From: Kribbella sp. NBC_00382
GTDB taxonomy: Bacteria; Actinomycetota; Actinomycetes; Propionibacteriales; Kribbellaceae
NCBI RefSeq assembly: GCF_036067295.1
Contig: NZ_CP107954.1
Location: 992,001 to 1,056,000, forward strand
Reading direction: 5' to 3'
DNA: 64,000 nt
A program made the position numbers and the translations under genes. Position 1 is the stretch's first letter, and every line of letters starts with the position of its first letter. Under the pieces are notes generated by a model that had not been told where the DNA came from, made no database searches, and worked only from the letters and a program-made list of their open reading frames with translations. This document shows, piece by piece, positions 6,011-64,000 of the stretch.

Positions 6011-7474
6011 ATGGGCCGAACCGGTGATGGTTACGCCCGCAGCGACCGGCCGCCCGGGCGTACCGCCGAGGCGGCACAACGTACCGCTGCGGTGGAGGAG
6101 CGCGTCCTGGAACTGGGCGGGATCCTGGCCGGCGCACTCGCGATCGATGTCCATGGCACCGATCTGCAGACCCTCAAGCGGGCGCCTCGACGGGCGCCGC
6201 CGACGGTGCCGGCTGCTGATCTCGCGGCGCGTCCCGGACCTGTCTGGGACGCGTTCCTGCCCCCACGGCTGGGACGGTTCCGCTGGTGGGGCACCGAACG
6301 CCGGTACGCGCGGCGGCTGGCCGAGGCCGAGGACAGGTTCGCCGAGGCCATCGACCGGCACCGGGCGGCCGAGGACACCAGGCGTGAGCGGGTGACGCGT
6401 GCCGTCAGGGAGCAGGCCGAGCAGCAGCGCCGGCTGGACGAGGCGACCGAAGAGCAGCACGCCCGCATCGACGCCTACCAGCGCGCCGTCGAGAACCACG
6501 ACCGCGAGGCAGTCAGCCGGTACTTCCGGAAGGCCCTCGAACGCGTCACCGAGCCGCCAGACTTCCCGCGCCGGCGCAGGGTCGGCTACGTGCCCGAGTC
6601 GACGCTGCTGGCGGTCGAGTGGGATCTCCCCGACCTCAGCGTCGTACCGGCTGAGGCGTCGTACCGCTACGACCGAGAGGTAGACGCGGTAGTCGCTGTG
6701 CCCCGGCCGGAGAAGGAAGTACGGCTGCTGTACCAGCAACTCGTTGCGCAGTTGGCCTTGCGGACCCTGCACCTGGTCTTCGGCAGCGACCGGTACAAGG
6801 TCGTCGACACCGTCGTCTTCAACGGCATGGTCGAGTCCGTGGACCTGCCGACCGGCCAGGCCGTCCGGCCATGCCTGATCACGCTCCGGGCCACCCGTGA
6901 GCAGTTCAAAGCCCTGGTACTCGACCAGTTGGATCCAGTTGCCTGCGTCCGCCACTACTTCGCTGCTGAGGTGTCCCGGCACCCAGAGGAACTCCAGCCG
7001 GTCGAACCGGTGCTGGACTTCGACCTGGCCGACCCGCGGACCATCAGAGCCGCAGACGTCATCAGCGAGATCGACAGCCGGCCGAACCTGCTGGAGCTCA
7101 CCCCTGACGAGTTCGAGCATCTGGTGCACAACCTGCTGACCCGGATGGGCCTGGAGACGCGGTTGTTCCGTAGTGGCAACGACGGTGGCATCGATTGCGT
7201 CGCCTACGACCCCAGGCCGATCACCGGTGGCAAATTCGTCGTACAGGCCAAGCTCTACACGCGTACTGTCCCACCGTCGGCCGTACGGGACCTCTTCGGG
7301 ACCGTGCTGGACGCCGGAGCCACCAAGGGCATCCTGATCACCACCAGTGGCTTCGGCCCGTCCAGCTACCAGTTCGCCAACGGGAAGCCACTGCAACTGA
7401 TCGACGGCACCGGCCTGCTCGCCCTCTGCCATCAGCACGACATCCCTGCCCGAATCGTCCCGCGCGCTAGCTGA
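6011..7474 (+). CDS. Mrr-type restriction endonuclease with N-terminal coiled coil
   Basis: A 487-residue protein. Residues about 100-180 are a long charged coiled-coil-like region rich in Arg, Glu and Ala. The C-terminal ~130 residues are an Mrr_cat PD-(D/E)xK domain: ELTPDEFEHLVHNLL, then GNDGGIDC (Asp near 394), FVVQAKLY (QxK near 412-414) and a GILITTSGF core strand. Mrr-like enzymes cut modified (often methylated) foreign DNA. No methyltransferase or specificity gene is next to it, as expected for a type IV enzyme. GAGG lies a few bases before the ATG. The 188-bp gap from the divergent acyl-CoA synthetase gene holds the promoters; an imperfect 16-bp palindrome is visible at 5889-5904. 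Confidence 0.85.
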   Translation: MGRTGDGYARSDRPPGRTAEAAQRTAAVEERVLELGGILAGALAIDVHGTDLQTLKRAPRRAPPTVPAADLAARPGPVWDAFLPPRLGRFRWWGTERRYARRLAEAEDRFAEAIDRHRAAEDTRRERVTRAVREQAEQQRRLDEATEEQHARIDAYQRAVENHDREAVSRYFRKALERVTEPPDFPRRRRVGYVPESTLLAVEWDLPDLSVVPAEASYRYDREVDAVVAVPRPEKEVRLLYQQLVAQLALRTLHLVFGSDRYKVVDTVVFNGMVESVDLPTGQAVRPCLITLRATREQFKALVLDQLDPVACVRHYFAAEVSRHPEELQPVEPVLDFDLADPRTIRAADVISEIDSRPNLLELTPDEFEHLVHNLLTRMGLETRLFRSGNDGGIDCVAYDPRPITGGKFVVQAKLYTRTVPPSAVRDLFGTVLDAGATKGILITTSGFGPSSYQFANGKPLQLIDGTGLLALCHQHDIPARIVPRAS

Positions 7475-8408
7475 TCGGGGACTCGTAGATCAGTAGCTCG
7501 GTACCGGTTGCGCCCTCACCGTCGTCGGGCGCAGTGAAGAGCCGCAGCTTAGTACCGTCGACCTCCAGCGCCACCGGGTTGCGGGTGACGGAGTGCCCGG
7601 CCGTGGAGTACGCCGCGAACGGGATCTCGTGCAGGATCCGGTTGTCGTCGTTGAGGTCGAGCAGTGTGAGCCCACCGAGCTCGAAGTTGCCACCTGTCTG
7701 CGTCTTGAGCCCAGTGACGCCGCCACACAGCTGCTTACTCCGCCCGACGTAGTCGCAGTCCTGGTAGTCCAGCAGGTGGCTCTGGTTGGGCTGCGCGTCC
7801 ACCTGCTTGCCAGAGGCAGTCCAGGCATAAAGCGTCCGCGACCCCCAGCTCACCCCATGCACCAGCCCGGTACGCCGGTCCCGCACGACCCCGCCAACAT
7901 GGTCCTTCACCCGGAACTGCTCCGTGACGCGATACGTGCGGGGGTTGATCTTGTAGACGATCGCCCGCGAGTTCGGCCGGTACTCCGCGGCCGGCACCCA
8001 CACGTTCTCGCCGTCGTAGTCGATCCCGCCCGGGTGGTACACCGTGCCCTCGCCGACCCGAATGTCCTTCTTCAGGTTGCCCTGGCGGTCCAGCACGAAC
8101 ACATGCCCGATCCCCTTGCCCGGCGTCCGGTCGTACCCGTCCACCGGCACCGGATAGGGCACCGGGGCCTCCAGCACCTCGACACTCGACAGGTAGATCA
8201 GATCGCCCACCAGCGCGAACCCCTGCGGATGGTACGTCGGGAACTTCAACGGGATGCGAGCAACCTGCGTCCACGCCGTACTACGGGTCGTCGCCTCGAA
8301 TGCCCGGGCAACCTTGTCATCGCGCCCGGCGGCGTCGGCGCCGACCACCGACAGGCCGGCCACCAGCACTCCGGCCAACACGCTCGCCACCAACGTCTTC
8401 CTACGCAT
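7467..8408 (-). CDS. secreted DUF6454-like protein
   Basis: A 313-residue exported protein: MRRKTLVASVLAGVLVAGL, then a Sec cleavage site near ADA-A. The mature part has repeated short beta segments (HPQGFALVGDLIYLS, HPGGIDYDGENVWVPAAEY, GVVRDRRTGLVHGVSWGSR) as in beta-propeller proteins, and resembles the DUF6454 family as I remember it. Function unknown. It has AGGAGA six bases before ATG 8408. Its 3' end overlaps the Mrr gene tail by 8 bp in convergent orientation, and its start is only 27 bp from the divergent SIMPL-domain gene, so the two promoters must interleave with the coding starts. Confidence 0.75.
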   Translation of the reverse strand: MRRKTLVASVLAGVLVAGLSVVGADAAGRDDKVARAFEATTRSTAWTQVARIPLKFPTYHPQGFALVGDLIYLSSVEVLEAPVPYPVPVDGYDRTPGKGIGHVFVLDRQGNLKKDIRVGEGTVYHPGGIDYDGENVWVPAAEYRPNSRAIVYKINPRTYRVTEQFRVKDHVGGVVRDRRTGLVHGVSWGSRTLYAWTASGKQVDAQPNQSHLLDYQDCDYVGRSKQLCGGVTGLKTQTGGNFELGGLTLLDLNDDNRILHEIPFAAYSTAGHSVTRNPVALEVDGTKLRLFTAPDDGEGATGTELLIYESPIS

Positions 8409-8435
8409 CGTGGTTCTCCTGTCAGACTGGCTCGT

Positions 8436-9059
8436 ATGGACTCTGGGATCACGGTGACCGGGACCGGGCAGGCTACTGCGCCGGCGGATCTACTGCGGCT
8501 GACTTTGAGTGTCGGTCATGACGCGGCCGATGTGGCGGCCGCGGTCGCACAAGTAGCCGAGAAGACCGATGCTGTTCATGCTGCATTGAGTGCGCTGGGG
8601 GTCGAGGCGAAGGACATCGAGACCAGCACGGTCAACGTCTACCCGCAGTACAGGGACTCGATGAAGGTGGCGAGCTATCGCGCGTCGCACTCGATCACCG
8701 TGACGACCCGGAACCTGACCGGGTTCGGTGACCTACTGAACGCCGCGGTCGATGCGGTGGGCAACGATCTCGGGATGGAAGGGCTGAACTTCGACGTCGC
8801 CGACAAGCGGCCGCTGCTGGACCAGGCGCGGCAACTCGCCTTCGCCCAGGCCCGTGAGAAGGCCGCCCAGCTGGCCGAGCTGGCCGGCCAGTCCCTCGGC
8901 TCCATCTCCGCCGTCACCGAAGGCTACGGCCACGGCCCGATCCCGTTGGTGATGGAGCAGTCGGCCAAGGCCTCCGGGGCCTACGACTCAAGCCTGTCGA
9001 TCACCCCTGGCGAGCAGACCGTCCAACTCTCCCTCGACGTCCGGTGGAACTGGGCCTGA
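8436..9059 (+). CDS. SIMPL (DUF541) domain protein
   Basis: A 207-residue protein matching the SIMPL/DUF541 fold: ITVTGTGQATAPADLLRL at the N-terminus, SALGVEAKDIETSTVNVYPQY, then an Ala/Gln-rich helix with AREKAAQLAELAGQSLG near the C-terminus. Bacterial homologues are often periplasmic and linked to envelope or oxidative stress, but this one shows no signal peptide. The ATG at 8436 has no clear Shine-Dalgarno; a leaderless transcript is possible. Divergent from the DUF6454-like gene. Confidence 0.82.
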   Translation: MDSGITVTGTGQATAPADLLRLTLSVGHDAADVAAAVAQVAEKTDAVHAALSALGVEAKDIETSTVNVYPQYRDSMKVASYRASHSITVTTRNLTGFGDLLNAAVDAVGNDLGMEGLNFDVADKRPLLDQARQLAFAQAREKAAQLAELAGQSLGSISAVTEGYGHGPIPLVMEQSAKASGAYDSSLSITPGEQTVQLSLDVRWNWA

Positions 9060-9122
9060 CACGTTGCACAAAGCTGCAAAATGGCGGGCACCAGGTTTGC
9101 GGGGCAATACAGTCGTTCCACC

Positions 9123-9893
9123 ATGGTGAACACTCGATCCTTCCTGTCCCTTGTCCTCGCTGCCGGACTCGCCACCACGCTGGCCGCCTGCAACGACAAA
9201 TCCGACAAGGCCGCGACGCCGCCGAGCACGAGCACGTCCTCGACCCCGCCGCCGAGCAGCACGCCGGCGCCGACGACCCCGTCGGTCACCCAGTCGGCCC
9301 CGGTGCCGGTCCCCGCGGCGCGAACCAAGGCGGACCTGACCAAGGCGCTGCTGGTGCTGGCAGACCTCCCGTCGGGGTTCTCCGTCGATACCTCCGGCGA
9401 TGAGGAGGACGGAACCAAGCTGTCCTCGACCGATGCCCGCTGCAAGGACCTGGTGCTGCTCTTCAACGCCGAGACCCCGCCCGGCGCGAAGGTCATCGCG
9501 AAACGCTCGTACACCGGCGGTCAGCAGGGCCCGTTCTTCGACGAGGAACTGGACGCGATGGGCTCGACCGCCGCGGCCAACGCGCTGCTCAACCGCACCA
9601 AGGCGGCGGTCAAGGGCTGCAAGACGGCCAAGCTGACCGTCCCCGGCGCCGGCACCTCGACGGTCGAGGTCAGCGAGATGTCGGTACCGAAGGCGGGCAC
9701 CAACCCGGTCGGCGGCCGGTTCACCGCCAGTGGCGGGCCGCTGGACGGCGCCGAAGTGCTCTTCGCCTTCACCGGGATCGGCGACGTCGTGCTCGCGATG
9801 AGCTTCGACGCCCCAGACGTCCTGGACGGAGCGCTCGGCGACGCGGCTGCCAAGGCGACCAAGGTGCTCGGCACGGCCAAGACCGGTACCTGA
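9123..9893 (+). CDS. putative lipoprotein, unknown function
   Basis: A 256-residue lipoprotein. The N-terminus VNTRSFLSLVLAAGL is followed by a lipobox (TTLAAC) with Cys about 22, then a low-complexity Ser/Thr/Pro linker and a ~180-residue domain with two Cys-containing segments (DARCKDLVLLF and KGCKTAKLTV) that could form a disulfide. I do not recognise the domain; it resembles the many sensor-like lipoproteins of actinobacteria. The ATG at 9123 is chosen because it puts the signal peptide at the N-terminus; the longer frame from 9081 would bury it. Confidence 0.72.
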   Translation: MVNTRSFLSLVLAAGLATTLAACNDKSDKAATPPSTSTSSTPPPSSTPAPTTPSVTQSAPVPVPAARTKADLTKALLVLADLPSGFSVDTSGDEEDGTKLSSTDARCKDLVLLFNAETPPGAKVIAKRSYTGGQQGPFFDEELDAMGSTAAANALLNRTKAAVKGCKTAKLTVPGAGTSTVEVSEMSVPKAGTNPVGGRFTASGGPLDGAEVLFAFTGIGDVVLAMSFDAPDVLDGALGDAAAKATKVLGTAKTGT

Positions 9894-9900
9894 GCAGGCC

Positions 9901-9915
9901 GTCTCAGATTGAGAC
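9901..9915. promoter_or_regulatory. inverted repeat upstream of the NRAMP gene
   Basis: GTCTCA, three bases, TGAGAC: a perfect 6-bp inverted repeat in the 78-bp gap between the lipoprotein stop and the NRAMP start. It could be an operator for a metal regulator or the tip of a weak terminator; no T-run follows. Confidence 0.35.
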
Positions 9916-9971
9916 GACTCTCCTACGCTTGCGCAGATGACGGAACGGGGTCCGGTACCTAAGGTCGAGCC

Positions 9972-11207
9972 ATGTACGCACCGGCTCCGCTGAGACGACA
10001 ACTGAACCGTTCGGGTCTGTTGTTGCTCGGTCCCGCCTTCGTGGCGGCGGTCGCGTACGTCGATCCGGGCAACTTCGCCACCAACATCGCCGCGGGCGCG
10101 ACGTACGGGTATCTGCTCTGCTGGGTCGTGGTCGGCGCCAACCTGATGGCCGTGCTGGTCCAGTACCTCGCGGCCAAGGCGAGCATCGCGACCGGGCTGA
10201 CGTTGCCGCAGCTGTGCCGGGAGCACTTCAAGCGGTCCACCTCGACCGGGTTGTGGGCGCAGGCCGAGCTTGTCGCGGTCGCGACCGACCTGGCCGAGGT
10301 GGTGGGTGGGGCGATCGCGCTCAACCTGCTGTTCGGGATTCCGTTGCTGCTCGGTGGTGCGATCACCGGCGCGGTCTCGTTCGCCTTGCTGATCTACCAG
10401 TCGAAGCGCGGGCAGCGGCCGTTCGAGGCGGCGATCGTCGGGTTGCTGGCGGTGGTACTGGTCGGGTTCGTGGTGTCGACGTTCCAGTCGCATCCGTCCG
10501 CGTCGGGCGTGGTGGGCGGCCTGGTACCGCGCCTGGACGGCACCCAATCGATCGTGCTGGCCGCCGGAATGCTCGGCGCGACGGTGATGCCGCACGCGAT
10601 TTGGTTGCACGGGGCCCTCGTCACGGACCGGCACTGGAAGTCGATCCGGTCTGCGAAGGGCAAGCAACGGGTGCTGCGCGCGACCCGGATGGACGTCGCG
10701 GTCGCGATGGCGCTGGCCGGTGCGGTCAACCTGGCGATGGTCGTGCTCGCGGCCGCCGCGCTGAAGGGCACCGGCGCCGACTCGCTCGACGCCGCGCACG
10801 CCGCGATCGGCGATCGGCTCGGTCATACGGCGGCATTGTTGTTCGCGCTCGCGCTGCTGGCGTCGGGCTTCGCGTCGTCCTCGGTCGGTACGTACGCCGG
10901 GTCGGTGATTCTCGAGGGGTTCTGGAAGCGTCACGTGCCGCTGGCGACGCGGCGACTCATCACGCTGGCTCCGGCGCTGATCATCCTGGCGATCGGGATC
11001 GACCCCAGTCGCGCGCTGGTCGTCTCGCAGGTCGTGCTGAGCTTCGGCATCCCGTGCGCGCTGTGGCCTTTGGTACGGCTCACAGCTTCCCGGCGCGTCA
11101 TGGGTGACCTTGTCAACCGGTTGCCGACTACTCTCCTGGCATGCCTGGTAGCAACCGCCGTCACGGCCCTCAACGTCGTACTGATCGTGCTGACGCTGCG
11201 GGGGTGA
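9972..11207 (+). CDS. mntH: NRAMP-family divalent metal transporter (MntH-like)
   Basis: A 411-residue integral membrane protein with about 11 hydrophobic segments, which should import Mn2+ (or Fe2+) with protons across the cytoplasmic membrane. The metal-site motifs are both intact: DPGN in helix 1 (AYVDPGNFATN, near residue 31) and MPH in helix 6 (ATVMPHAIWLHG). Length is normal for MntH. It is followed 7 bp later by a phosphoesterase gene. A small inverted repeat at 9901-9915 is a possible operator. Confidence 0.92.
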   Translation: MYAPAPLRRQLNRSGLLLLGPAFVAAVAYVDPGNFATNIAAGATYGYLLCWVVVGANLMAVLVQYLAAKASIATGLTLPQLCREHFKRSTSTGLWAQAELVAVATDLAEVVGGAIALNLLFGIPLLLGGAITGAVSFALLIYQSKRGQRPFEAAIVGLLAVVLVGFVVSTFQSHPSASGVVGGLVPRLDGTQSIVLAAGMLGATVMPHAIWLHGALVTDRHWKSIRSAKGKQRVLRATRMDVAVAMALAGAVNLAMVVLAAAALKGTGADSLDAAHAAIGDRLGHTAALLFALALLASGFASSSVGTYAGSVILEGFWKRHVPLATRRLITLAPALIILAIGIDPSRALVVSQVVLSFGIPCALWPLVRLTASRRVMGDLVNRLPTTLLACLVATAVTALNVVLIVLTLRG

Positions 11208-53221: not shown

Positions 53222-54013
53222 ATGCGGCAGTATCTGGAGCTTCTCGACCACGTTCTCACCACCGGCGTCGAGAAGGGCGACCGCACCGGCACCGGCACGC
53301 TCAGCGTCTTCGGCTACCAGTCGCGCTACGACCTCACCCAGGGCTTCCCCGCGGTGACGACCAAGAAGCTGCACCTGCGCTCGGTGATCGGTGAGCTGAT
53401 CTGGTTCCTGAGCGGCTCGACCAACATCAAGTGGCTGCACGAGAACAACATCTCGATCTGGGACGAGTGGGCCGACGCCGACGGCGAGCTGGGCCCGGTC
53501 TACGGCTACCAGTGGCGCTCCTGGCCGACCCCGGACGGCCGGCACATCGACCAGATCTCCGCGCTGATCGAGTCGATCAAGACCAACCCGAACTCCCGCC
53601 GGCACATTGTCAGCGCCTGGAACGTCGCGGACGTCGACGGGATGGCATTGCCGCCCTGCCACACGATGTTCCAGTTCTACGTTGCCGACGGCAAGTTGTC
53701 CTGCCAGCTGTACCAGCGCTCGGCCGACATCTTCCTCGGCGTCCCGTTCAACATCGCTTCGTACGCCCTGTTGACGCACATGGTCGCCCAGCAGACCGGT
53801 CTCGAGGTCGGCGACTTCGTCCACACCCTCGGCGACGCGCACCTCTACCTGAACCACCTCGACCAGGCCAAGCTCCAGCTCACCCGCGAGCCCCGCCCGC
53901 TACCGACGCTGCGGCTGGCCAAGCGCGACTCCATCGACTCGTACGAGATCGCGGACGTCGTACTCGACGGCTACGACCCGCACCCCGGGATCAAGGCGCC
54001 GATCGCGGTATGA
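53222..54013 (+). CDS. thyA: thymidylate synthase
   Basis: A 263-residue ThyA, converting dUMP to dTMP with methylene-tetrahydrofolate. The active-site motif is [12 protein letters not shown], with the [32 protein letters not shown] and HLYLNHLDQ segments conserved. Full length. It overlaps folA by ATGA, the classic thyA-folA operon that regenerates the dihydrofolate ThyA makes. Confidence 0.97.
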
Positions 54014-54468
54014 CCGTCATCCTGATCGCCGCGGTCGGTGCCAATGGCGTGATCGGGCGGGACAACGATCTGCCCTGGCGGATTCGTGAGGATCTGCAGC
54101 ATTTCAAGGCGTTGACGCTCGGGCATACGTTGGTGATGGGCCGTAAGACCTACGACTCCATCGGCCGGCCGTTGCCTGGTCGGCGTACTGTCGTCGTCAC
54201 CCGGCAGCTCGACTGGGCCGTCGACGGTGTCGAGGTCACGCACGACCTGGACGTTGCCCTGAAGCTTGCTGATGGCAACGACCTGTACGTGGCCGGCGGT
54301 GGGGAGATCTACCGCCAGGCGCTCCCGTACGCCGACCGCCTGGAACTGACCGAGGTCGACCAGTCCCCCGACGGCGACGTCACCTTCCCCACCTTCGACC
54401 GCACCGACTGGCGCGAAACCGCCCGAATCCAGCACGACGGTTTCGCGTTCGTCACCTACGTTCGCTAG
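54010..54468 (+). CDS. folA: dihydrofolate reductase
   Basis: A 152-residue [81 protein letters not shown]. All substrate and NADPH-binding motifs are standard. Its stop region overlaps the convergent glycosidase gene by 4 bp. Confidence 0.97.
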
Positions 54469-56024
54469 TTGTTTCGCGGGTCGGTCGTGCTCTCGGCCTT
54501 GTAGGAGTTGTACTCCGGCTTGGGAGTGCCTTCTGTGGTGAGCAGGTCCAGCGCCTGACCCGTATGGGAGGCGATGGTGGACTGGTTGGAGAGCCAGACG
54601 TTGTGGGTGCGGAGCATGGCGAACATGGCGTGCACGTAGAAGTCGGTCCAGGCCTGGCTCTCATTGCCCGGCCAGGTGAGGTCGATCGTGTCGTTCCACT
54701 CACTGTCGGCCAGCTTGAGTTCGTCGGCGATCGGGTAGCCCTGGTCGGTGAGGCCGGCGAACGCGCTGTTCACGTAGGCCTGTAGGTCGTCGTAGAAGTT
54801 GCCCCAGGCATCGATCGCCGCCTGGGCGTGCGCCTGGGTGTCGTTCTCGGTCGGCGTCACCAGGTACGTGTGGGTGGAGATGAAGTCGGGCAGCCAGTCG
54901 CGGTTCTGCGCGTGGGCGAGATAGTCGGCCTTGGTGGCAGCGAGCCAGACCTTCAACTCCGCAAGACTCGGCGCGTCACTGGCGGACCAGCCAGGTCCGC
55001 CGACGTAGATCTGGTGGCCGAGCGTCCGGGCATACGCCTTCAGCGTGGGCACGTTCACCCAGAGCTGGTCGTGGTACTGCTGCCCGGTCAGCCCGCAGTA
55101 GTGGTCCGGCTCGTTGCCCATCTCATAGAGGTTGACCCGACTTCCGGCGGTCCGGATGATCCACTGCTGCCAGGCGAGCGACCAGGGGTCGGGCGCTGTC
55201 GCGCACTGCTGGTCCCAGATCGGTGGCAGGCCGACTAGCGGTTCGGCGCCGAGGCGGCGGATCCCGTCGATGGCGGCGTTGAACTGCGCCTCTGTCTGAC
55301 AGTCAGTAGGGCGCAACTCGCACGGCGGCTTCCACATCTGCCACTTGATCACCCGGATCTTGGCAGCGGTCACATTGGCTGCTGCGGTCGCGTTGCTGAT
55401 CGCAGTACCGCCGTCCATGTCCCAGGCGCCGATATGCGAGCCGTAGATGAGGTTCTGCCCATCGAAGAGTGAACCGCGCGGGTCAGTCTTGGTCCAGCTC
55501 GCATCGTCCAGGTACACCCGCCCGTCCCAGCCCCGGCTGTCGAACTCGAGGCCCAGGTGGTGGATGTCCGGTACCGCCGGTACCCGCCAAGTGAGAGTGG
55601 TCCACGAACCCGGGGTCAGCCTCGACCAGGGCCCGAAGTGCTCCACGTACGCCTTGTCTGTCACGTACGGCTTCACCTGGAGCAGCCTGGCGCTCCTGGG
55701 CGTATAGAGGTGGTAGGTCACCAGCGAGCCGACCGTCAGCCCCGGCAGCCGCGAAGGCGACCTGAACCCTGGGTACTCGCGTCCCTCCACCGACAGAGCC
55801 AATGAGCGTGCGCCGCTGAGGGCGACCGCGGTGGAGCTGGTCGGATCGTCTCCACCCCAGTCAACGCTCCAGCCCTGGGCTGTGCCGTCCTCCCAGTCAT
55901 AGCCCTGGGTCGCTGCGGCCTGTACCGCTCCCCCACCGGCTGCGGTCCCAAGTACCGCGATCAGTGTTCCTATGAGTACGAGTGTGAACAAACGCCTGTT
56001 CACTCCACGCTGTAACCGTTGCAT
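54465..56024 (-). CDS. secreted clan GH-A-like glycoside hydrolase
   Basis: A 519-residue exported protein. A Sec signal (RRLFTLVLIGTLIAVLGTAAG, cleavage near VQA-A) is followed by a ~150-residue beta-sandwich (CBM-like: YDWEDGTAQGWSVDWGG) and a TIM-barrel domain with YEMGNEPDHYC (acid/base Glu of the NEP motif) and ELKLADSEWNDT (nucleophile candidate). Substrate unknown, likely plant polysaccharide. GAGGGGGG precedes ATG 56024. Ends convergent with folA. Confidence 0.78.
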   Translation of the reverse strand: MQRLQRGVNRRLFTLVLIGTLIAVLGTAAGGGAVQAAATQGYDWEDGTAQGWSVDWGGDDPTSSTAVALSGARSLALSVEGREYPGFRSPSRLPGLTVGSLVTYHLYTPRSARLLQVKPYVTDKAYVEHFGPWSRLTPGSWTTLTWRVPAVPDIHHLGLEFDSRGWDGRVYLDDASWTKTDPRGSLFDGQNLIYGSHIGAWDMDGGTAISNATAAANVTAAKIRVIKWQMWKPPCELRPTDCQTEAQFNAAIDGIRRLGAEPLVGLPPIWDQQCATAPDPWSLAWQQWIIRTAGSRVNLYEMGNEPDHYCGLTGQQYHDQLWVNVPTLKAYARTLGHQIYVGGPGWSASDAPSLAELKVWLAATKADYLAHAQNRDWLPDFISTHTYLVTPTENDTQAHAQAAIDAWGNFYDDLQAYVNSAFAGLTDQGYPIADELKLADSEWNDTIDLTWPGNESQAWTDFYVHAMFAMLRTHNVWLSNQSTIASHTGQALDLLTTEGTPKPEYNSYKAESTTDPRNN

Positions 56025-56209: not shown

Positions 56210-57478
56210 ATGACCGAAGCTGACAACACCCAGGGCGCCGCAGCAGCACAGCAGGCTGCGGCAGCACCGGCTATCTCGCCGCTGCAACCGCCTACTGCGA
56301 CCGCACCTGGGCTGATACTAACCGCGCCGGCGCCAACACAGCCAGTAGCGGCCACCGCCGCGCCGAGCCTGGCTCCGGCGGTCGATCCGGCCGCGCTGCC
56401 CGGCCTGGACTCGAAGGTCGACTCCTTCCTGACCTCGCTGATGACCGCCGCGCCGCGGTCACCGGAGTTCGCCCAGAAGGCCGGCGACGTCCGCAGCATG
56501 GGCGACGTCGACATCCGGCACGCCGCGGAGAGCTCGAACCGGCTGCTGCAGTCGCCGGTCAAGGCGCTGACCAGCGGCGGCCTGGCCGAGGGCTCGACGG
56601 TGGGCAAGACGCTGCTGGAGCTCCGCCGTACGGTCGAGAACCTGGACCCGAAGGAAGCCACCGGGCCGAAGAAGCTGCTCGGGATGATCCCGTTCGGGGA
56701 CAAGATCGAGGACTACTTCCGCAAATACCAGAGCGCCCAGAGCCACCTCGAGGGCATCCTGCACTCGCTCCGCAACGGCCAGGACGAGCTCGGCAAGGAC
56801 AACGCCGCGCTGAACCTGGAGAAGCAGCAGCTCTGGGACGCGATGGGCCGGCTGAACCAGTACGTCTACGTCGCCGAGCGGCTCGACGCGCGGCTGTCGG
56901 CGACCATCGCCGAGCTGGAGCTGTCCGACCCGGACAAGGCCCGGGCGCTGCGCGAGGACGTCTTGTTCTACGTCCGCCAGAAGCACCAGGACCTGCTCGT
57001 CCAGCTGGCCGTGTCGATCCAGAACTACCTGGCCATCGACATCGTGATCAAGAACAACATCGAGCTGATCAAGGGTGTCGACCGAGCCTCGACGACGACG
57101 GTCTCGGCACTGCGGACCGCGGTCATCGTGGCGCAGGCGCTGGGCAACCAGAAGCTGGTGCTCGACCAGATCACCGCGCTGAACACGACCACCAGCGGGA
57201 TGATCGAGCGCACCTCGCAGATGCTGCGGGACAACTCGGTCGCGATCCAGCAGCAGGCGGCGTCGGCGACCATCGGGCTGCCGCAGCTGCAGGCGGCGTT
57301 CGCCAACATCTACGCCACGATGGACGCGATCGACACCTTCAAGAGCGAGGCGCTGGACAACATGGCGGCCACCATCGGCACGCTCGAGGGCGAGGTGACC
57401 AAGTCCCGCAGCTACCTGGACCGAGTCGCAAAGCAGGACCAGCGCGTCGTCTCGGGCACGCTCGACCTCGGCCGCTGA
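56210..57478 (+). CDS. TelA-family toxic anion resistance protein
   Basis: A 422-residue cytosolic TelA/KlaA homologue. After an Ala/Pro-rich N-terminus come the family signatures KVDSFLTSLMTAAPRSPEF, TVGKTLLELRRTVENLDP, LLGMIPFGDKIEDYFRKYQSAQSHLEGIL and a long helical body. In tellurite-resistance loci TelA interacts with XpaC-like proteins; the next gene is XpaC-like. First gene of a seven-gene operon ending in pknG. ATG 56210 has GAGGGG upstream. Confidence 0.9.
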   Translation: MTEADNTQGAAAAQQAAAAPAISPLQPPTATAPGLILTAPAPTQPVAATAAPSLAPAVDPAALPGLDSKVDSFLTSLMTAAPRSPEFAQKAGDVRSMGDVDIRHAAESSNRLLQSPVKALTSGGLAEGSTVGKTLLELRRTVENLDPKEATGPKKLLGMIPFGDKIEDYFRKYQSAQSHLEGILHSLRNGQDELGKDNAALNLEKQQLWDAMGRLNQYVYVAERLDARLSATIAELELSDPDKARALREDVLFYVRQKHQDLLVQLAVSIQNYLAIDIVIKNNIELIKGVDRASTTTVSALRTAVIVAQALGNQKLVLDQITALNTTTSGMIERTSQMLRDNSVAIQQQAASATIGLPQLQAAFANIYATMDAIDTFKSEALDNMAATIGTLEGEVTKSRSYLDRVAKQDQRVVSGTLDLGR

Positions 57479-57570
57479 CCACCAGTACACACAGCAGGTA
57501 CGCCGGAAGCGGCCGGCCGGGGACTTGACCCGGTCCGGCCCTGGGGACCACAGGAGCGGGGAACGACTGC

Positions 57571-58167
57571 ATGGCATTGGGTGACTTCTTTGCGCGGCTC
57601 ACAGGCCGCAAGGCGGAGCCCGAGCCTGCCCCGATCCCCCGCGCACCCACCAACGACGACCTGTTGCAGTCGCTGGTCCGGGTCGAGCAACTGGTCGCGG
57701 ACGGCGCCGTACCGGCCGTAGTGGCGTCCCGGGTCAACCGGGTGGTCAGGATCGTGCGGGAGACCATCCCGCGGCTGGGCAACCTCGGCGGCAGCGCCCA
57801 GGCGTACTCCGTGATGGCCACCGCGACGGACTACCTGCCGGAGGCGATCGGCGGGTACCTCCGACTGCCACGGCAGTGGGCGGACAGCCGGCCGGTGGAT
57901 CGCGGGAAGACGTCGCTGATGATCCTGATCGACCAGCTGGACCTCTTGGGGTCGACGATGGACAAGGTGTTCGACGCGGTGAACCGGGCGGACGCGGCGG
58001 CGCTGATCGCCCATGGCCGGTTCCTGCAGGAGAAGTTCGGCACCGGGTCGACGGGTGGCAGTCTCGCTCTCGGCCCGACGGAATCAACACCGGCACCGGA
58101 TCCGGGTCCACCGCAACCACCGGGGGCGGGTCCGCTGCAACCACCACCAGGACGAGGAGGAGCATGA
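57571..58167 (+). CDS. XpaC-like protein in the PknG operon
   Basis: A 198-residue protein: NDDLLQSLVRVEQLVADGAVPAVVASRVNRVVRIVRETI and YLPEAIGGYLRLPRQWADSR, a helical pattern like XpaC proteins that partner TelA. The C-terminal 40 residues are Pro/Gly-rich and disordered. It overlaps the AAA+ gene by ATGA. Molecular role unknown. Confidence 0.72.
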   Translation: MALGDFFARLTGRKAEPEPAPIPRAPTNDDLLQSLVRVEQLVADGAVPAVVASRVNRVVRIVRETIPRLGNLGGSAQAYSVMATATDYLPEAIGGYLRLPRQWADSRPVDRGKTSLMILIDQLDLLGSTMDKVFDAVNRADAAALIAHGRFLQEKFGTGSTGGSLALGPTESTPAPDPGPPQPPGAGPLQPPPGRGGA

Positions 58168-59576
58168 CCGGCGCGGGGGGTACTTCGCTGCAGGACGCAC
58201 TGTCCGGCCTGCTGGCCGTCGCTACGCGTGCCGGCGTTGCTGAGTCGGTGGCTCGCGCCGAGGCGCTGTCACTGGCCGCTGCTCTCGCTGAGTCGGCACC
58301 GGGTGCTTCTGCTGACTGGGCTGCGGTGACGCCGGGTTTCGGCACCCAGGACTTCTTCGACGCAGCGGTACGCGGCCGCCGCTGGCGTGGCGCACCTACT
58401 GCCGTACTGACTGACCTGGTTGCGCAGGGGTCTGCTGAGAAGGTGCCGTACGCCGAGGCGCTGGCTGAGGTGGCTTCGGCGGCTTGCAGTCTTGGTGAGC
58501 CGACCATGCGGGTCATCGGCAACGCATCGGTGGCGGCTGCCGCTCAGTTGCAGGCAGCAGGCGCACGGCAGCAAGTACAGGTCGGTGCCACTCCAACTAC
58601 GGCTGCTCCCGCTGTAGAGGCGAAGCCTGCGGTGGAAGAAAAGCCTGCTGAGCCTGAACGAACTGTTGAAGAGTTGCTTGCTGAGCTTGATGAGCTGACT
58701 GGGTTGGCGAAGGTCAAGCGGGAGGTGCATCGGCAGGTTGCTGTGTTGCGGGTGGAGAAGTTGCGGGTCGAGGCGGGGCTGAAGAGTCCGACGATCACCC
58801 GGCACCTCGTGTTCACCGGCAACCCCGGCACCGGCAAGACGACCGTGGCTCGGCTCGTGAGTGGGATTTACAAGGCGCTTGGGCTGCTCTCCAAGGGGCA
58901 GCTGATCGAGGTCGACCGGTCTGAGCTGGTGGCCGGGTATTTGGGGCAGACGGCAACCAAGACCGCCGAGGTGGTCGCGTCGGCGGTCGGTGGCGTGCTG
59001 TTCATCGACGAGGCCTACAGCTTGACCGCTGGTGAGTTGGGCGCCGATCAGTACGGGCGTGAGGCTGTGGACACGTTGGTGAAGGAGATGGAGGACCGGC
59101 GGGACGATCTGGTCGTCATCGTGGCCGGCTACCCCGAGCCGATGGAGGACTTCATCGCGGCGAACCCCGGGCTGGCGAGCCGGTTCCGGACCACGATCGC
59201 GTTCGAGGACTACACCGACGACGAGCTGACCGACATCCTGACCGGCCTGGCCGAGGGCGCCGACTACGAGCTGACGGCGAACGCGCTGGACGAGTTCAAG
59301 GTGATCCTCGCGTCGACCCGGCGGGACCGTTCGTTCGGCAACGGCCGGTTCGCCCGCAACATGCTGGAGGCCGCGATCGGCCGGCACGCCTGGCGGCTGC
59401 GCGACGTGACGGCACCGACCACCGAGCAATTGCGTCAGATCCTCGCCGAGGACCTGACCGACGAAGAGCCGGAGACAGCGGTACCGGACAAGCCGGCCGT
59501 CGCGGCAGAGCTGGACAGCGCAGTACCGGAGCAGCCCGTAGTACCGGATGAGGACGAGCAAGGAGAGACGGCGTGA
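58164..59576 (+). CDS. CbbX/CfxQ-like AAA+ ATPase
   Basis: A 470-residue protein: an N-terminal helical region (1-165), a linker rich in Ala/Pro/Glu, then a CbbX-type AAA+ module with GNPGTGKT (219-226), GYLGQTA (258-264), VLFIDEAYSL (278-287) and an NPGLASRFRTTI arginine-finger region. Relatives remodel rubisco, act in type VII secretion (EccA) or in metal/tellurite stress. Here it likely remodels a neighbour in this operon (TelA, GlnX or PknG). Overlaps glnX by GTGA. The C-terminal 40 residues are acidic and disordered. Confidence 0.88.
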   Translation: MTGAGGTSLQDALSGLLAVATRAGVAESVARAEALSLAAALAESAPGASADWAAVTPGFGTQDFFDAAVRGRRWRGAPTAVLTDLVAQGSAEKVPYAEALAEVASAACSLGEPTMRVIGNASVAAAAQLQAAGARQQVQVGATPTTAAPAVEAKPAVEEKPAEPERTVEELLAELDELTGLAKVKREVHRQVAVLRVEKLRVEAGLKSPTITRHLVFTGNPGTGKTTVARLVSGIYKALGLLSKGQLIEVDRSELVAGYLGQTATKTAEVVASAVGGVLFIDEAYSLTAGELGADQYGREAVDTLVKEMEDRRDDLVVIVAGYPEPMEDFIAANPGLASRFRTTIAFEDYTDDELTDILTGLAEGADYELTANALDEFKVILASTRRDRSFGNGRFARNMLEAAIGRHAWRLRDVTAPTTEQLRQILAEDLTDEEPETAVPDKPAVAAELDSAVPEQPVVPDEDEQGETA

Positions 59577-60901
59577 CACAGACAGCCAGTGCGCCACCCG
59601 CGACCAGGTCGCCGGTGGTCCCGCAGGCCGCGGCGCCGGGTCTGCCGACGCCGCCGCCGGTCCAGCGGCAGCAGCTCGGCCGGGTCGCCCAGCTCTTCGA
59701 GGGCACGCCCGGCCGGATGCGCGCGATGCTCATCCTGGCCGCCGTGTTCAGCGTCGTCTTCGGGCTGACCGCCGCGCAGGGCTTCAACCAGTCCGACGGC
59801 GCGCTCGGCCGGGCCGAGGCGAACACTGCCCAGCTGGTCCGGATCCAGGCGATCCACACCAACCTGGTCAGCGCGAACGCCGACGCCACCAACGCCTTCC
59901 TGGTCGGTGGCCTGGAGCCGCCGGCCCAGCGCCAGCACTTCACCGACGCGATGACGAACGCCGCCAAGCTGATCTCCGAGGCCGCGACCGCCCAGCCCGC
60001 CGACCAGCAGGCACTGGGCGAGCTCAACGTCACCCTGCTCACGTACCAAGGTCTGATCGAGCAGGCGCGGGCCAACAACCGCCAGGGCCTGCCGTTGGGT
60101 TCGCAGTACCTGAAGGACGCCAGCGCAACCCTGCAGGACGACTCACTGCCGCTGCTGAACGCACTGGTCACCGCCAACCAGGACCGGGTCGACACCGAGT
60201 TCAACGGCGTCAACCTGGGCAACATCTGGATGCTCACCGGAGGGCTGCTCTCCTTCGCGGTCCTGCTCTTCGCCCTGTGGTGGCTGGCCAAGCGCACCCA
60301 CCGCTGGGTGAACGTACCGGTCGCAGCCGCCGCAGCCCTGGTACTGCTCACCACGGTCGTCGGCGGCGCCTCCCTCGCGGGTGCGGCCAGCGCGGCCAAG
60401 GACACCAGGAAGAACGCGTACGCCGACACGCTCGCGCTCTCGCAGGCCCGCATCTCGGCGTACGACGCGAAGTCGAACGAGAGCCTGACCCTGATCGCCC
60501 GCGGCTCCGGTACGGCCTTCGAGGTCGCCTGGAAGGAAGCGGCGAACAACACCAGCGACCAGCTCAGGGCCGTCAGCGACACAGCACCCGGCCTCGGCTC
60601 GGCGTGGGACAACTACCGCGAGGTGCACGTCGCCATCCGCAAGAGCGACGACGACGGTTTTTGGGACAAAGCGGTCCACCTGGCCATCGGGTCCGGCAAC
60701 GGGACCTCCAACGCCACGTTCAAGACCTTCGACGACCAGTCGGCCGGCAAGCTGGCCGACTTCAGCGACCAGACCCGGGCCGAGCTGAGCGACGCCCGCG
60801 ACGGGCTGCCGCCGATCGGCTGGCTGGGCCTGCCGATCGGGATCGCCGCCGCCCTGCTCGCCGCCTGGGGATTCTCCCAGCGACTGGAGGAGTACCGATG
60901 A
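59573..60901 (+). CDS. glnX: GlnX-like membrane sensor protein
   Basis: A 442-residue protein with four transmembrane helices and two extracellular domains: TM1 near 52-72, domain 1 to ~215, TM2-TM3 (GLLSFAVLLFALWWLAKRTHRW and AAAALVLLTTVVGG), domain 2 to ~410 and a C-terminal TM4. The order glnX-glnH-pknG matches mycobacteria, where the GlnX partner passes aspartate/glutamate binding by GlnH to PknG. Start GTG 59573, overlapping the AAA+ stop. Confidence 0.85.
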   Translation: MTQTASAPPATRSPVVPQAAAPGLPTPPPVQRQQLGRVAQLFEGTPGRMRAMLILAAVFSVVFGLTAAQGFNQSDGALGRAEANTAQLVRIQAIHTNLVSANADATNAFLVGGLEPPAQRQHFTDAMTNAAKLISEAATAQPADQQALGELNVTLLTYQGLIEQARANNRQGLPLGSQYLKDASATLQDDSLPLLNALVTANQDRVDTEFNGVNLGNIWMLTGGLLSFAVLLFALWWLAKRTHRWVNVPVAAAAALVLLTTVVGGASLAGAASAAKDTRKNAYADTLALSQARISAYDAKSNESLTLIARGSGTAFEVAWKEAANNTSDQLRAVSDTAPGLGSAWDNYREVHVAIRKSDDDGFWDKAVHLAIGSGNGTSNATFKTFDDQSAGKLADFSDQTRAELSDARDGLPPIGWLGLPIGIAAALLAAWGFSQRLEEYR

Positions 60902-61890
60902 ACAAGACCCGCCTGATCGCAGGCTCGCTGGCCCTCCTGTTCGCCGCCACCGCCTGCGGCTCCAGCTCGTACGACGCGACGCCCGTTCCGGCCAAGCCGA
61001 CCCCGGCCCCGGCTACGCCTGCCCCGGCAGCACCGGAGACCTGCAAGAACGCACTGCAGTCGTACGCACCGGACGTCACATTGCCGCCCCCTGGCGCGAT
61101 GCCGGACGGCACCACGATGGCGAAGATCCAGCAGTACGGCCGGCTCGTCGCGGGCGTCTCGGCAGACAGCCTCAACCTCGGCTCGCGGGACCCGATCAGC
61201 GGCAAGATCCAGGGCTTCGACATCGACATGATCAACGCCGTCGCGGACGCCATCTTCGGCGAACCGGCGCCGGGACAGCCGCACAAAGTCGAGCTCCGGG
61301 TGATCTCCAGCCCGCAGCGCCTTCCCGTCCTGCAGGCGCCCCGCAAGGACGGCGCGGTCGACATCGTCGCGCGGAACATGACGATCAACTGCGACCGGTG
61401 GACCAAGATCGCGTTCTCCGCGGAGTACTACCACTCCGGCCAGAAGCTGCTGGTCCAGCGCGACATGAAGGAGCAGTCGCTCAAGCAGTTGAGCGGCAAG
61501 AAGGTCTGCACCCCGACCGGTTCGACCAGCTACACCAACATGCGCAAGGAAAACCCCGACATCATCCCGGTGACCGCCGACACCGACACTGGCTGCCTGG
61601 CGCTGTTCCAGGCCGGCGAGGTCGTCGGTATCTCCGGTGACGACACCGTGCTCGCCGGAGACGTCGCTCAGGACCCCTACGCCCGAGTGACCACGGCCGG
61701 CCAGATCAGCGATGAACCGTACGGCCTCGGCATGAACTCCGGTCAGGTCGACTTCGTGAAGTTCGTCAACGGCGTGCTGGCGAAGATGAAGGCCGATGGC
61801 GATTGGCAGAAGTCGTACGACACGTGGTTCCTCAAGGCGCTCGGCCCCGCGAAGCCGCCGGTGGCCCAATACGGGCGAGTCGCCCCCTGA
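60898..61890 (+). CDS. glnH: GlnH-like amino-acid-binding lipoprotein
   Basis: A 330-residue solute-binding lipoprotein: lipobox FAATAC with Cys ~19, Pro/Ala linker, then the type 3 binding domain (GRLVAGVSADSLNLGSRDPISGKIQGFDIDMINAVADAIFG; DIVARNMTINCDRWTKIAFS; GSTSYTNMR). In mycobacteria GlnH binds Asp/Glu/Asn and activates PknG through GlnX. ATGA overlap with glnX; the following gene overlaps by one base. Confidence 0.9.
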   Translation: MNKTRLIAGSLALLFAATACGSSSYDATPVPAKPTPAPATPAPAAPETCKNALQSYAPDVTLPPPGAMPDGTTMAKIQQYGRLVAGVSADSLNLGSRDPISGKIQGFDIDMINAVADAIFGEPAPGQPHKVELRVISSPQRLPVLQAPRKDGAVDIVARNMTINCDRWTKIAFSAEYYHSGQKLLVQRDMKEQSLKQLSGKKVCTPTGSTSYTNMRKENPDIIPVTADTDTGCLALFQAGEVVGISGDDTVLAGDVAQDPYARVTTAGQISDEPYGLGMNSGQVDFVKFVNGVLAKMKADGDWQKSYDTWFLKALGPAKPPVAQYGRVAP

Positions 61891-63014
61891 TGACAGTGGG
61901 TACGCCGACGGCGACTGCGCCGTCTCCTCCGGGGCGGATCGGCAGCAGCATTCCTGCGAAGGAGCTGCTGGACTTTCTCGATGCCTTGGGGAGTTGGCGG
62001 GATCGGCGTCGGGCGGAGCTGGACGAGCTCGACCAGGCCGCCCTGAACTCGGCCGACGCCGACGCGCTGAGCGGCGACATCGTCTTGTCGATGGCGGTCT
62101 GGAAGGCGGTCTCGGACCGGTACGAGCTGATCCTGGTCACCTGGGACTCCGGCCGGGTTGGAACGACCGAGACCGAGCGGATCTCGACGCTGATCTGGGG
62201 CGGCCTGGACACCGGTGGCGCGGCCGGTTCGCTCGCGGTTTCGTTGCCTGAGGCATGTACTTTGTCGGACGCGCTCGCGTCGACGCTGCGGGCCAAGCTC
62301 GCGCTCGAACCCGGTGATGCCGACCTGGCGGCGCGGTTGCGCCAACTGCGGGCAGGCGTCGAGCGGATCAACGACCTGGTCGCGATCGAGCCCGCGAGCA
62401 CCCGCAACGCGGCGATCGCGACGCACCACGACCTCGACCGGCGTACCACCGATCTGACCGAGCGGGCCAAGCGTGGCGCGGACATCGGCGGGCTGATCGG
62501 GCCGCTGGAGATCGACGCAGCGCATGCCGAGCGGGACCTCATCGTCGGCGCAGCGACCCGTCGCGAGCGGGCGGCCGACGTGGCCCGGGCTCGTGCGGTC
62601 CGGACCGAGCTCGAAGCGCAGGGGCAGGCGGTACGGACCCTGGCGGACCGTTGCGTCGCTACGGTGACGCCGGCGCCGCGGCTCGCAGTACCGGATGTGA
62701 CTGCGTTGGGGCCGGTGCCGAACACACCGGCCGAGTTGGAGAAGTACCTGACCCGGCTGGACGCAGTACGGCGTGCACTGGGGCAGGCACAGACGGCGTA
62801 CGGCTCCGCACTGGAGCGCAAGGACGAGTTGGCCGGGCGGCTGGACGCGTATCAGGTGAAAGCCGGCAGCGTCCCCCGGAGCAGTGGTACCACCGATGAC
62901 CTGGCAGAGCTCTACCGACGCGGCCGTGAGGTGCTCGACGCGGAACCAGTGGACCTGGTTCGGCTCGGCGCGCTCGTTGCGGCGTACCAGACGTATCTGG
63001 GAGTGACGACATGA
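61890..63014 (+). CDS. coiled-coil protein of the PknG operon, unknown function
   Basis: A 374-residue mostly helical protein without transmembrane segments: PAKELLDFLDALGSWRDRRRAELDELDQAAL at the N-terminus, long charged helices in the middle (TERAKRGADIGGLIGPLEIDAAHAERDLIVGAATRRERAADVARARAVR), and a short C-terminal domain. It sits between glnH and pknG with overlapping ends (TGATG and ATGA), a position where mycobacteria have no gene. Could be a scaffold linking the sensor to the kinase. Confidence 0.75.
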   Translation: MTVGTPTATAPSPPGRIGSSIPAKELLDFLDALGSWRDRRRAELDELDQAALNSADADALSGDIVLSMAVWKAVSDRYELILVTWDSGRVGTTETERISTLIWGGLDTGGAAGSLAVSLPEACTLSDALASTLRAKLALEPGDADLAARLRQLRAGVERINDLVAIEPASTRNAAIATHHDLDRRTTDLTERAKRGADIGGLIGPLEIDAAHAERDLIVGAATRRERAADVARARAVRTELEAQGQAVRTLADRCVATVTPAPRLAVPDVTALGPVPNTPAELEKYLTRLDAVRRALGQAQTAYGSALERKDELAGRLDAYQVKAGSVPRSSGTTDDLAELYRRGREVLDAEPVDLVRLGALVAAYQTYLGVTT

Positions 63015-64000
63015 CGACCAACGCCTGCACACAGCCGGGTTGTACCGGCACGATCCAGGACGGCTACTGCGACGTTTGCGGCTCACCAGCCGCCGCGTCC
63101 GCAGCGGGCACGCCCGTATCGGCTGTCACGGGAAGGCCGGGCATCTCCGGCGCACCGACGGCCTCCGGCGCGTGCACGCAACCAGGTTGCTCCGGGACGG
63201 TGGTGGACGGCTACTGCGACGTCTGCGGCACTCCTGCCGGTGGAAGCAGCTCTGCAGCGCTGGACCCGATCAGTACCGCCTCGACTGTGTCGCGTGCGTC
63301 CAACCGCCTGGCGTCGACCCCACTGGGCTCGGCCCGGGCGACAGCGGCCGGCTCCAAGCTCACCCGCAAGCTCGGTACTTCGTCGACGCGCCTGCGTGGA
63401 GCACGACTGGGCGCCGGCCTGACGCATGTGCCGCCGATCCCCGCGATCGACGCCAGCAAAGCGATCCTGGCCAACCCCATGGTCCCCGAGGAACGCCGCA
63501 ACTGTCCCAACTGCGGCAACCCGGTCGGCCGCTCGCGGGGCGACCAGCCCGGCCGTACCGACGGCTTCTGCCCGAAGTGCCGCAGCCCGTTCTCGTTCTC
63601 GCCGAAGCTGCAGGACGGCGACCTGGTCGGCGGCCAGTACCTGGTCCGCGGCTGCCTGGCGCACGGTGGCTTCGGCTGGATCTACATGGCCCAGGACCAG
63701 AACGTGTCCAACCGCTGGGTGGTGCTGAAGGGCCTGCTGAACTCGGAGGACCCGGACGCCGTCGCGGCCGCGATCGCCGAGCAGCAGTTCCTGGCCCGGG
63801 TCGAGCACCCGCTGATCGTCGAGATCTACAACTTCGTCACCCACGACGGCGCCGGCTACATCGTGATGGAGTACGTCGGCGGTACCTCGCTCAAAACCCT
63901 GCTCAAGCAGCGGATGGAGGCCAACCGCGGTCAGTACGACGCGCTGCCGATCGACCAGGCGATCGCCTACATGCTCGAGATCATGCCGGCGTTCTCCTAT
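63011..64000 (+). CDS. pknG: PknG-type serine/threonine protein kinase, 3' end outside the window
   Basis: At least 330 residues, truncated by the window edge. N-terminal part: two repeats CTQPGCTG...DGYCDVCG (C6/C11/C20/C23 and C55/C60/C69/C72), each a small zinc-ribbon, then the PknG rubredoxin-like domain (NCPNCGNPVGR...GFCPKC). The kinase starts VGGQYLVRGCLAHGGFGWIYMAQDQN with the ATP Lys in VVLKGLL, and reaches IVMEYVGGTSL. In mycobacteria PknG controls GarA and glutamate metabolism. Last visible gene of the operon. Confidence 0.93.
   Translation, partial: MTTNACTQPGCTGTIQDGYCDVCGSPAAASAAGTPVSAVTGRPGISGAPTASGACTQPGCSGTVVDGYCDVCGTPAGGSSSAALDPISTASTVSRASNRLASTPLGSARATAAGSKLTRKLGTSSTRLRGARLGAGLTHVPPIPAIDASKAILANPMVPEERRNCPNCGNPVGRSRGDQPGRTDGFCPKCRSPFSFSPKLQDGDLVGGQYLVRGCLAHGGFGWIYMAQDQNVSNRWVVLKGLLNSEDPDAVAAAIAEQQFLARVEHPLIVEIYNFVTHDGAGYIVMEYVGGTSLKTLLKQRMEANRGQYDALPIDQAIAYMLEIMPAFSY

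Follow-up and report, generated by a model that had tools for sequence, protein, structure and literature searches.

An extended, order-wide PknG signalling operon that opens with telA in Kribbella sp. NBC_00382

Gene content of the operon

The window analysed here, that is the whole stretch of 64,000 nucleotides at positions 992,001 to 1,056,000 of contig NZ_CP107954.1 (Kribbella sp. NBC_00382, assembly GCF_036067295.1, a genome of 8.49 Mb in one contig), ends inside an operon that starts with a telA gene and includes the gene of the protein kinase PknG. This is an order-wide extended PknG signalling operon (order Propionibacteriales), the core of which belongs to the known GlnX-GlnH-PknG kind. 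All its genes lie on the + strand; positions are those of the window, and coordinates beyond its end were read from the genome. The first gene, telA (56210–57478), codes for 422 amino acids covering positions 4–332 of the 332 of the PF05816 profile (E 2.3e-93) and is followed, after a gap of 92 bases, by the gene of a 198-amino-acid partner (57571–58167) and by that of an AAA+ ATPase of the SpoVK/EccA/CbbX type (58164–59576, 470 amino acids). Then come glnX (59573–60901, GTG start, 442 amino acids; NF058618 at 334.7 bits, cut-off 250), glnH (60898–61890, 330 amino acids; a family 3 solute-binding protein whose N-terminal sequence resembles that of a lipoprotein), the gene of a helical protein, here termed the adaptor (61890–63014, 374 amino acids), and pknG (63011–65389, interrupted by the window end at 64000; 792 amino acids), whose product carries rubredoxin (PF16919, 91 bits), kinase (PF00069, 100.8 bits) and TPR (PF16918, 165.9 bits) domains.

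From the second to the seventh gene, successive pairs overlap by 4, 4, 4, 1 and 4 bases. Past the window end, a PP2C phosphatase gene with a double zinc ribbon (65386–66453) overlaps pknG by 4 bases, a vWA gene (66485–67762) starts 31 bases after it, and an FHA gene with zinc-ribbon-like motifs (67759–68469) overlaps the latter by 4 bases, thus extending the operon to ten genes. A first-pass annotation of the window had proposed a seven-gene operon: the seven genes held up on translation and in family searches, as did the overlaps of 1 or 4 bases from the second gene on and the GlnX-GlnH-PknG core (NF058618 above its cut-off, PknG domains found), while the count fell short by the three genes just described. 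The coupling of the extra genes to the core, also proposed there, is borne out by overlap and by conservation.

Two of the names given by that annotation had to be abandoned. The 198-amino-acid product of the second gene, called XpaC-like, has no Pfam or NCBIfam match; PF10112, which we take to be the XpaC family, matched none of 16 aligned members (E up to 5) and yielded nothing at this locus in the genome of the window (E up to 10). The safer name is TelA-partner family, weak homologues of which (21–116 bits) were found at 19 of 28 generic telA loci. As for the AAA+ protein, called CbbX, its score with that model (TIGR02880) was 229.3 bits for a cut-off of 459.25, below those obtained with SpoVK (279.5 bits) and EccA (235.2 bits), and all three remained under their equivalog cut-offs. 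With CbbX, SpoVK and EccA it has in common the AAA core and AAA_lid_6; a Walker A (GNPGTGKT) and a Walker B (VLFIDEA) motif were read from the sequence, and an N-terminal part of about 165 residues is left without family assignment.

TelA is a widespread protein whose mechanism is poorly understood. Searching the PDB by sequence retrieved no relative of the Kribbella TelA at E up to 0.01, and no relative was confirmed in the viral contigs searched in order to deepen its alignment. GlnX, with four hydrophobic segments by hydropathy, is a membrane protein; it did not reach the stricter equivalog NF041460 (142.1 against 780 bits). Similar short zinc-ribbon-like motifs (e.g., GYCDVCG or RFCSQCG, after CxxxGC or CxxCG) were observed at the N-termini of the kinase, of the phosphatase, of the FHA protein and of the GarA orthologue encoded elsewhere in the genome, the motif being doubled at the start of PknG (63011–63300). 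It looks as if the parts of a putative phospho-switch were marked alike.

Distribution of the operon and of telA

Profiles were built from the operon proteins, and 53 loci were annotated in a first comparison; loci, genomes and families are designated by L, G and f numbers. In all 25 telA-bearing loci, telA, partner, AAA+, glnX, glnH, adaptor, pknG and PP2C genes followed each other in the same order on one strand, and vWA and FHA genes were present in 24 of them, the exception being L087. In a wider table, with score thresholds of our own, all ten genes were found in 17/17 Kribbella loci and in seven of eight f2 loci, the eighth being a 4-kb contig. A search of public genomes with the adaptor returned 23 loci, each with all ten genes (21 Kribbella, one Streptomyces sp. 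and one metagenome-assembled genome), a set that shares species with the other samples and was retrieved through one of the ten genes.

Within the order, the co-occurrence of telA and pknG was then counted in 196 genomes. Strong matches to both were found in 84 genomes and to neither in 109, with telA only in two (G510 and G179) and pknG only in one (G477); the co-occurrence that the first-pass annotation had put forward as a check on its operon therefore holds, three genomes being discordant. A kinase of this kind is indeed present in G510, devoid of the TPR domain (locus L174). Among the 84 genomes with both, 82 have the two genes within 12 kb, and the other two, G373 (fragmented) and G429 (family f42), have them on different contigs. 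Seven weak TelA matches (68.9–94.4 bits) were left out of the count as another type, six of them in genomes within the 109 (G451, G430, G526, G458, G493 and G439) and one a second copy in G506. Chance was set aside as a cause (Fisher p 4e-52), a value that is overstated since the genomes of the order are related.

Of 394 genomes drawn from the class, 75 had TelA and 143 had PknG_TPR; within this order, all ten genomes with either of the two had both. Outside the order, among the matches listed, telA stood away from pknG except in G010. Around 28 generic telA genes, where up to 20 kb was inspected, the profiles detected no PknG operon. A tree built from 51 TelA proteins united the 21 of the operon type (support 0.953), along with those of loci L128, L129 and L134, which lie apart from PknG. 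In the open-licence literature, nothing was found on the combination of a PknG operon with TelA and the AAA+ protein.

Comparison with PknG loci lacking telA helped to define what is special to the order. Four loci of f5, which we take to be the mycobacterial family, contain only glnX, glnH and pknG among the operon profiles, plus one weak PP2C match (32 bits). Loci of f20 (presumably Streptomyces), f18 and f19 share glnX, glnH, pknG and mostly the PP2C, vWA and FHA genes, and have no telA, partner or AAA+ gene in the locus. A protein matching the adaptor was found at 14 of the 32 telA-less pknG loci, by thresholds of our own, the other 18 (among them L042, L044, L051 and L052 of f20, f18 and f19) giving no match. 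In ten such loci analysed closely, only the last ≈68 residues at the C-terminus of the adaptor were matched (E 1.7e-8 to 1.9e-6 and probability 90–95% by profile comparison). The helical protein between glnH and pknG, listed among the extras by the first-pass annotation, is thus present as claimed without being peculiar to this operon. PknG thus commonly comes with PP2C, vWA and FHA proteins and with one that shares the C-terminal piece of the adaptor; what is special to the order is the addition of telA with its partner, of the AAA+ gene and of the N-terminal domain of the adaptor.

Gene losses, kinase fusions and possible changes in the sensor and output

Natural losses were found in family f41, where 31 genomes have a strong telA or pknG. 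The 21 loci considered are a chosen set, 19 of them fetched partly for a short telA-pknG distance or for a seemingly missing gene. Within these loci, telA and the partner were each present in 20, the AAA+ gene in 17, glnX in 19 and pknG in all 21, and glnH was missing at 16, the search being confined to the loci with none made elsewhere in these genomes. TelA and partner were kept in 15 of the 16 loci without glnH. GlnX scored only 37–96 bits in eight f41 loci, and four or five hydrophobic segments were counted in the six f41 proteins checked. On the best tree of telA and vWA, the distribution of loci without glnH requires three losses or more; since one of them depends both on a node supported at 0.715 and on the glnH of L187, very divergent though counted as present, two independent losses are the safe minimum. 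The most reduced loci, L173 and L174, have the AAA+, glnX, glnH and PP2C genes below thresholds and keep telA, partner, kinase, vWA and FHA. Conversely, L175 (genome G477), the only f41 pknG genome found without telA, also lacks partner, AAA+ and adaptor and keeps glnX, pknG, PP2C and FHA.

In L173 and L174 the N-terminal ≈220 amino acids of the adaptor (model positions ≈5–228; E 4e-53 and 1e-56) precede the kinase in a single fusion protein. The L173 fusion (6392–9349 of that locus) has no rubredoxin and a partial TPR domain; the L174 fusion (9441–10823) has neither rubredoxin nor TPR. Together with the joint loss in L175, these fusions indicate that the adaptor N-terminal part goes with telA and belongs beside the kinase. 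The PknG TPR domain has been proposed to meet GlnX, according to passages of PMC6069109 and PMC8546545, and a reduced TPR in the two genomes without GlnX is what a kinase with two inputs would be predicted to show. The fold model of the adaptor (mean predicted local distance difference test, pLDDT, 83.7; predicted template modelling score 0.45) is helical, and a PDB search by sequence found no relative at E up to 1.

The sensor arm of Kribbella may differ from the described one. In M. tuberculosis GlnH, as given in a section of PMC6069109, the ligand side chain is contacted by Arg147, Trp232 and Thr162, and its backbone is held by Ser164, Arg169 and Asp250. In an alignment of 55 operon GlnH proteins, all 17 Kribbella sequences keep Arg147, have Asp in place of Trp232 and Asn in place of Thr162, carry Thr for Ser164 and keep Arg169 and Asp250; Trp232 is retained only in the four f5 sequences. 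An amino acid is thus the likely ligand of the Kribbella GlnH, with a pocket that differs from the Asp/Glu-specific one, so that Asp/Glu specificity is not predicted from these residues. More than one glnX-glnH pair was observed in f19 genomes (loci L061 and L062; G072 and G142), some on the strand opposite to a nearby pknG; matches to the GlnX profile numbered up to six per f19 genome, some being pieces of one gene.

On the output side, a GarA orthologue was found in 31/31 Kribbella genomes, the copy of the genome of the window (G000:C1:6195715-6196233, with a zinc-ribbon-like motif) lying next to gcvH-like and MerR-like open reading frames, named from the sequence. In corynebacteria and mycobacteria PknG phosphorylates the first motif Thr, T14 of OdhI and T21 of GarA, as stated in part of PMC2784874. 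In the 30 Kribbella sequences read, a DTAML motif is invariant, the first motif Thr aligning with Asp and the second being kept (alignment by eye, with a short variable linker), and the four f5 sequences show ETTSVF. The Kribbella operon is like that of Mycobacterium and Corynebacterium in the order of glnX, glnH and pknG, in the rubredoxin, kinase and TPR domains of PknG and in having GarA elsewhere in the genome; Corynebacterium PknG has no rubredoxin, according to an excerpt of PMC8546545. The Kribbella operon differs by seven further genes, by GlnH changes at two of three side-chain positions and by a GarA in which Asp aligns with the first motif Thr. Because of the changed pocket and of this aligned Asp, glutamate and GarA assays taken from mycobacteria or corynebacteria may miss the signal here, and the scheme leading from an Asp/Glu-binding GlnH through PknG to GarA may not carry over unchanged beyond these two groups.

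Possible inputs to the kinase

Since telA is retained where the amino-acid sensor has been lost, TelA may supply the kinase with a second signal. From these sequence comparisons we propose that PknG might receive two inputs, one through GlnH and GlnX and the other through TelA, its partner and the AAA+ protein by way of the helical adaptor, a reading to which we give an even chance. In the first arm, the known one, the lipoprotein GlnH would bind an extracellular amino acid and signal via GlnX to the PknG TPR domain. In the second, cytoplasmic TelA, the partner and the AAA+ protein may build or survey a sub-membrane assembly, with TelA possibly sensing the state of the membrane or envelope and the AAA+ protein possibly resetting assemblies of TelA or of the adaptor. 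In the adaptor, the N-terminal domain would be devoted to the TelA arm and the C-terminal hairpin to PknG and GlnX, the PP2C, vWA and FHA proteins making a phospho-switch with the kinase. Gene content, overlaps, co-occurrence, losses and the adaptor-kinase fusion are observed directly, whereas the physical contacts, the roles of TelA and of the AAA+ protein and the sign of the effect on the kinase are what we infer.

That the second signal comes from the envelope is a guess by analogy, its sole basis being the regulation of TelA in Firmicutes. There, telA adjoins a partner gene as in Kribbella, the gene numbers running xpaC then telA (strand unchecked), and Kribbella adds the AAA+ gene and the kinase operon. 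In Lactococcus, genes of the XpaC-like and telA types are induced within a CesSR-linked envelope response (a passage of PMC3139573), and in Listeria a TelA-type gene affects nisin tolerance (a passage of PMC12791056). A fuller version of the proposal is more tentative, and we consider it rather doubtful on the present comparisons. In it TelA would be an input of a eukaryote-like kinase, and PknG would combine extracellular amino acids, via GlnH and GlnX, with the condition of the membrane or envelope, as sensed by TelA, the partner and the AAA+ ATPase and passed on by an adaptor specific to this arm. The TelA arm would then be the more indispensable one and could drive the kinase alone, for instance in the two genomes with an adaptor-kinase fusion and neither GlnX nor GlnH.

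Several observations weigh against two inputs. All the evidence is comparative; the predicted fold of TelA is of too low a quality for use (mean pLDDT 54.2), and the adaptor model has no fold relative (best PDB match E 1.2), so that no claim past helical is made for it. The fusion lineage is a small sample, with long branches and just two genomes from a single genus, and no TelA-kinase fusion was seen among the loci. The AAA+ gene is dispensable, being missing in L171, L173 and L174, and L175 does not isolate the TelA arm, since glnH and vWA are missing there too. In other families the PknG locus contains no telA, and glnH was not found in four of the 32 telA-less pknG loci either (L065, L162, which reaches a contig end, L175 and L190), so that its loss is no special mark of telA-bearing operons. 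Lastly, telA, with or without the partner gene, stands away from PknG in many actinobacteria, which means that TelA does not need PknG. Thus, in L134 (family f33) a telA-partner pair (9161–11056), with a TelA that groups with the operon type, lies inside a run of purine-biosynthesis-like genes, and two f34 genomes carry operon-type telA-AAA+ pairs without PknG (L128, 9049–12083; L129, 7780–10670), the other operon profiles being unmatched in the 20-kb stretches. As the L128 and L129 proteins fall within the operon group beside the Kribbella TelA (midpoint-rooted tree), these pairs have the appearance of a remnant or of a transfer.

Such pairs would be expected if TelA, partner and AAA+ protein were an independent envelope-stress module that shares regulation with the kinase by co-transcription and has no contact with it. 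The occurrence of telA and partner alone in other orders, as in L134, the telA-AAA+ pairs without PknG in two genomes and the 92-base gap after telA, unlike the overlapping second to seventh genes, are all in keeping with this. We nevertheless regard it as unlikely, because telA and pknG co-occur almost perfectly over the 196 genomes, because telA remains next to the kinase after much of the operon is lost, and because the adaptor N-terminal domain tracks telA and, in two genomes, forms one protein with the kinase.

A further possibility is that the kinase, PP2C and vWA proteins constitute a triad of the TerY-P type acting with TelA in a Ter-like stress system, control of 2-oxoglutarate metabolism by GarA being secondary or absent in Kribbella. 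As described in parts of PMC4978471 and PMC7824862, the TerY-P triad consists of TerY, a kinase and a PP2C, and TelA with a vWA protein makes a sub-membrane part of Ter stress systems. The Kribbella locus is alike in bringing together vWA, Ser/Thr kinase and PP2C genes with TelA, its smallest versions keep TelA, kinase, vWA and FHA, and in 30/30 Kribbella sequences the first motif Thr of GarA is aligned with Asp. It differs in that the kinase is PknG by its rubredoxin and TPR domains and comes with a GlnX-GlnH sensor, and in that none of the nine operon proteins scanned, the FHA protein being outside the scan, matched the TerD, TerB or TerC families; moreover, GarA is found in all 31 Kribbella genomes, and the 30 sequences read all retain the second Thr. 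We therefore hold this alternative to be improbable.

The least probable reading is that of the first-pass annotation, in which the extras would act on the GlnX-GlnH sensor or on PknG within an enlarged amino-acid sensing system: the gene overlaps, their conservation and the backbone-holding residues of GlnH (Arg169, Asp250 and Thr for Ser164) agree with it, but it fits poorly with a side-chain pocket unlike the Asp/Glu-specific one and with extras that outlive glnH (telA and partner at 15/16 f41 loci without it) and, in two genomes, glnX. This conserved operon joins the question of how PknG is fully activated with that of the role of TelA, and the natural losses and the fusion, by splitting it into arms, offer a direct route to test both.

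Upstream of the operon, a divergent open reading frame lies on the – strand (54465–56024), adjoined on its far side by thymidylate-synthase-like and dihydrofolate-reductase-like frames (53222–54468, names from the sequence), an ordinary arrangement. A sigma-70 scan gave one promoter-like match for 0.4 expected and a terminator scan five for 3.9 expected, and neither was used. Downstream, an epoxide-hydrolase-like open reading frame, also named from the sequence, begins 57 bases past the FHA gene.

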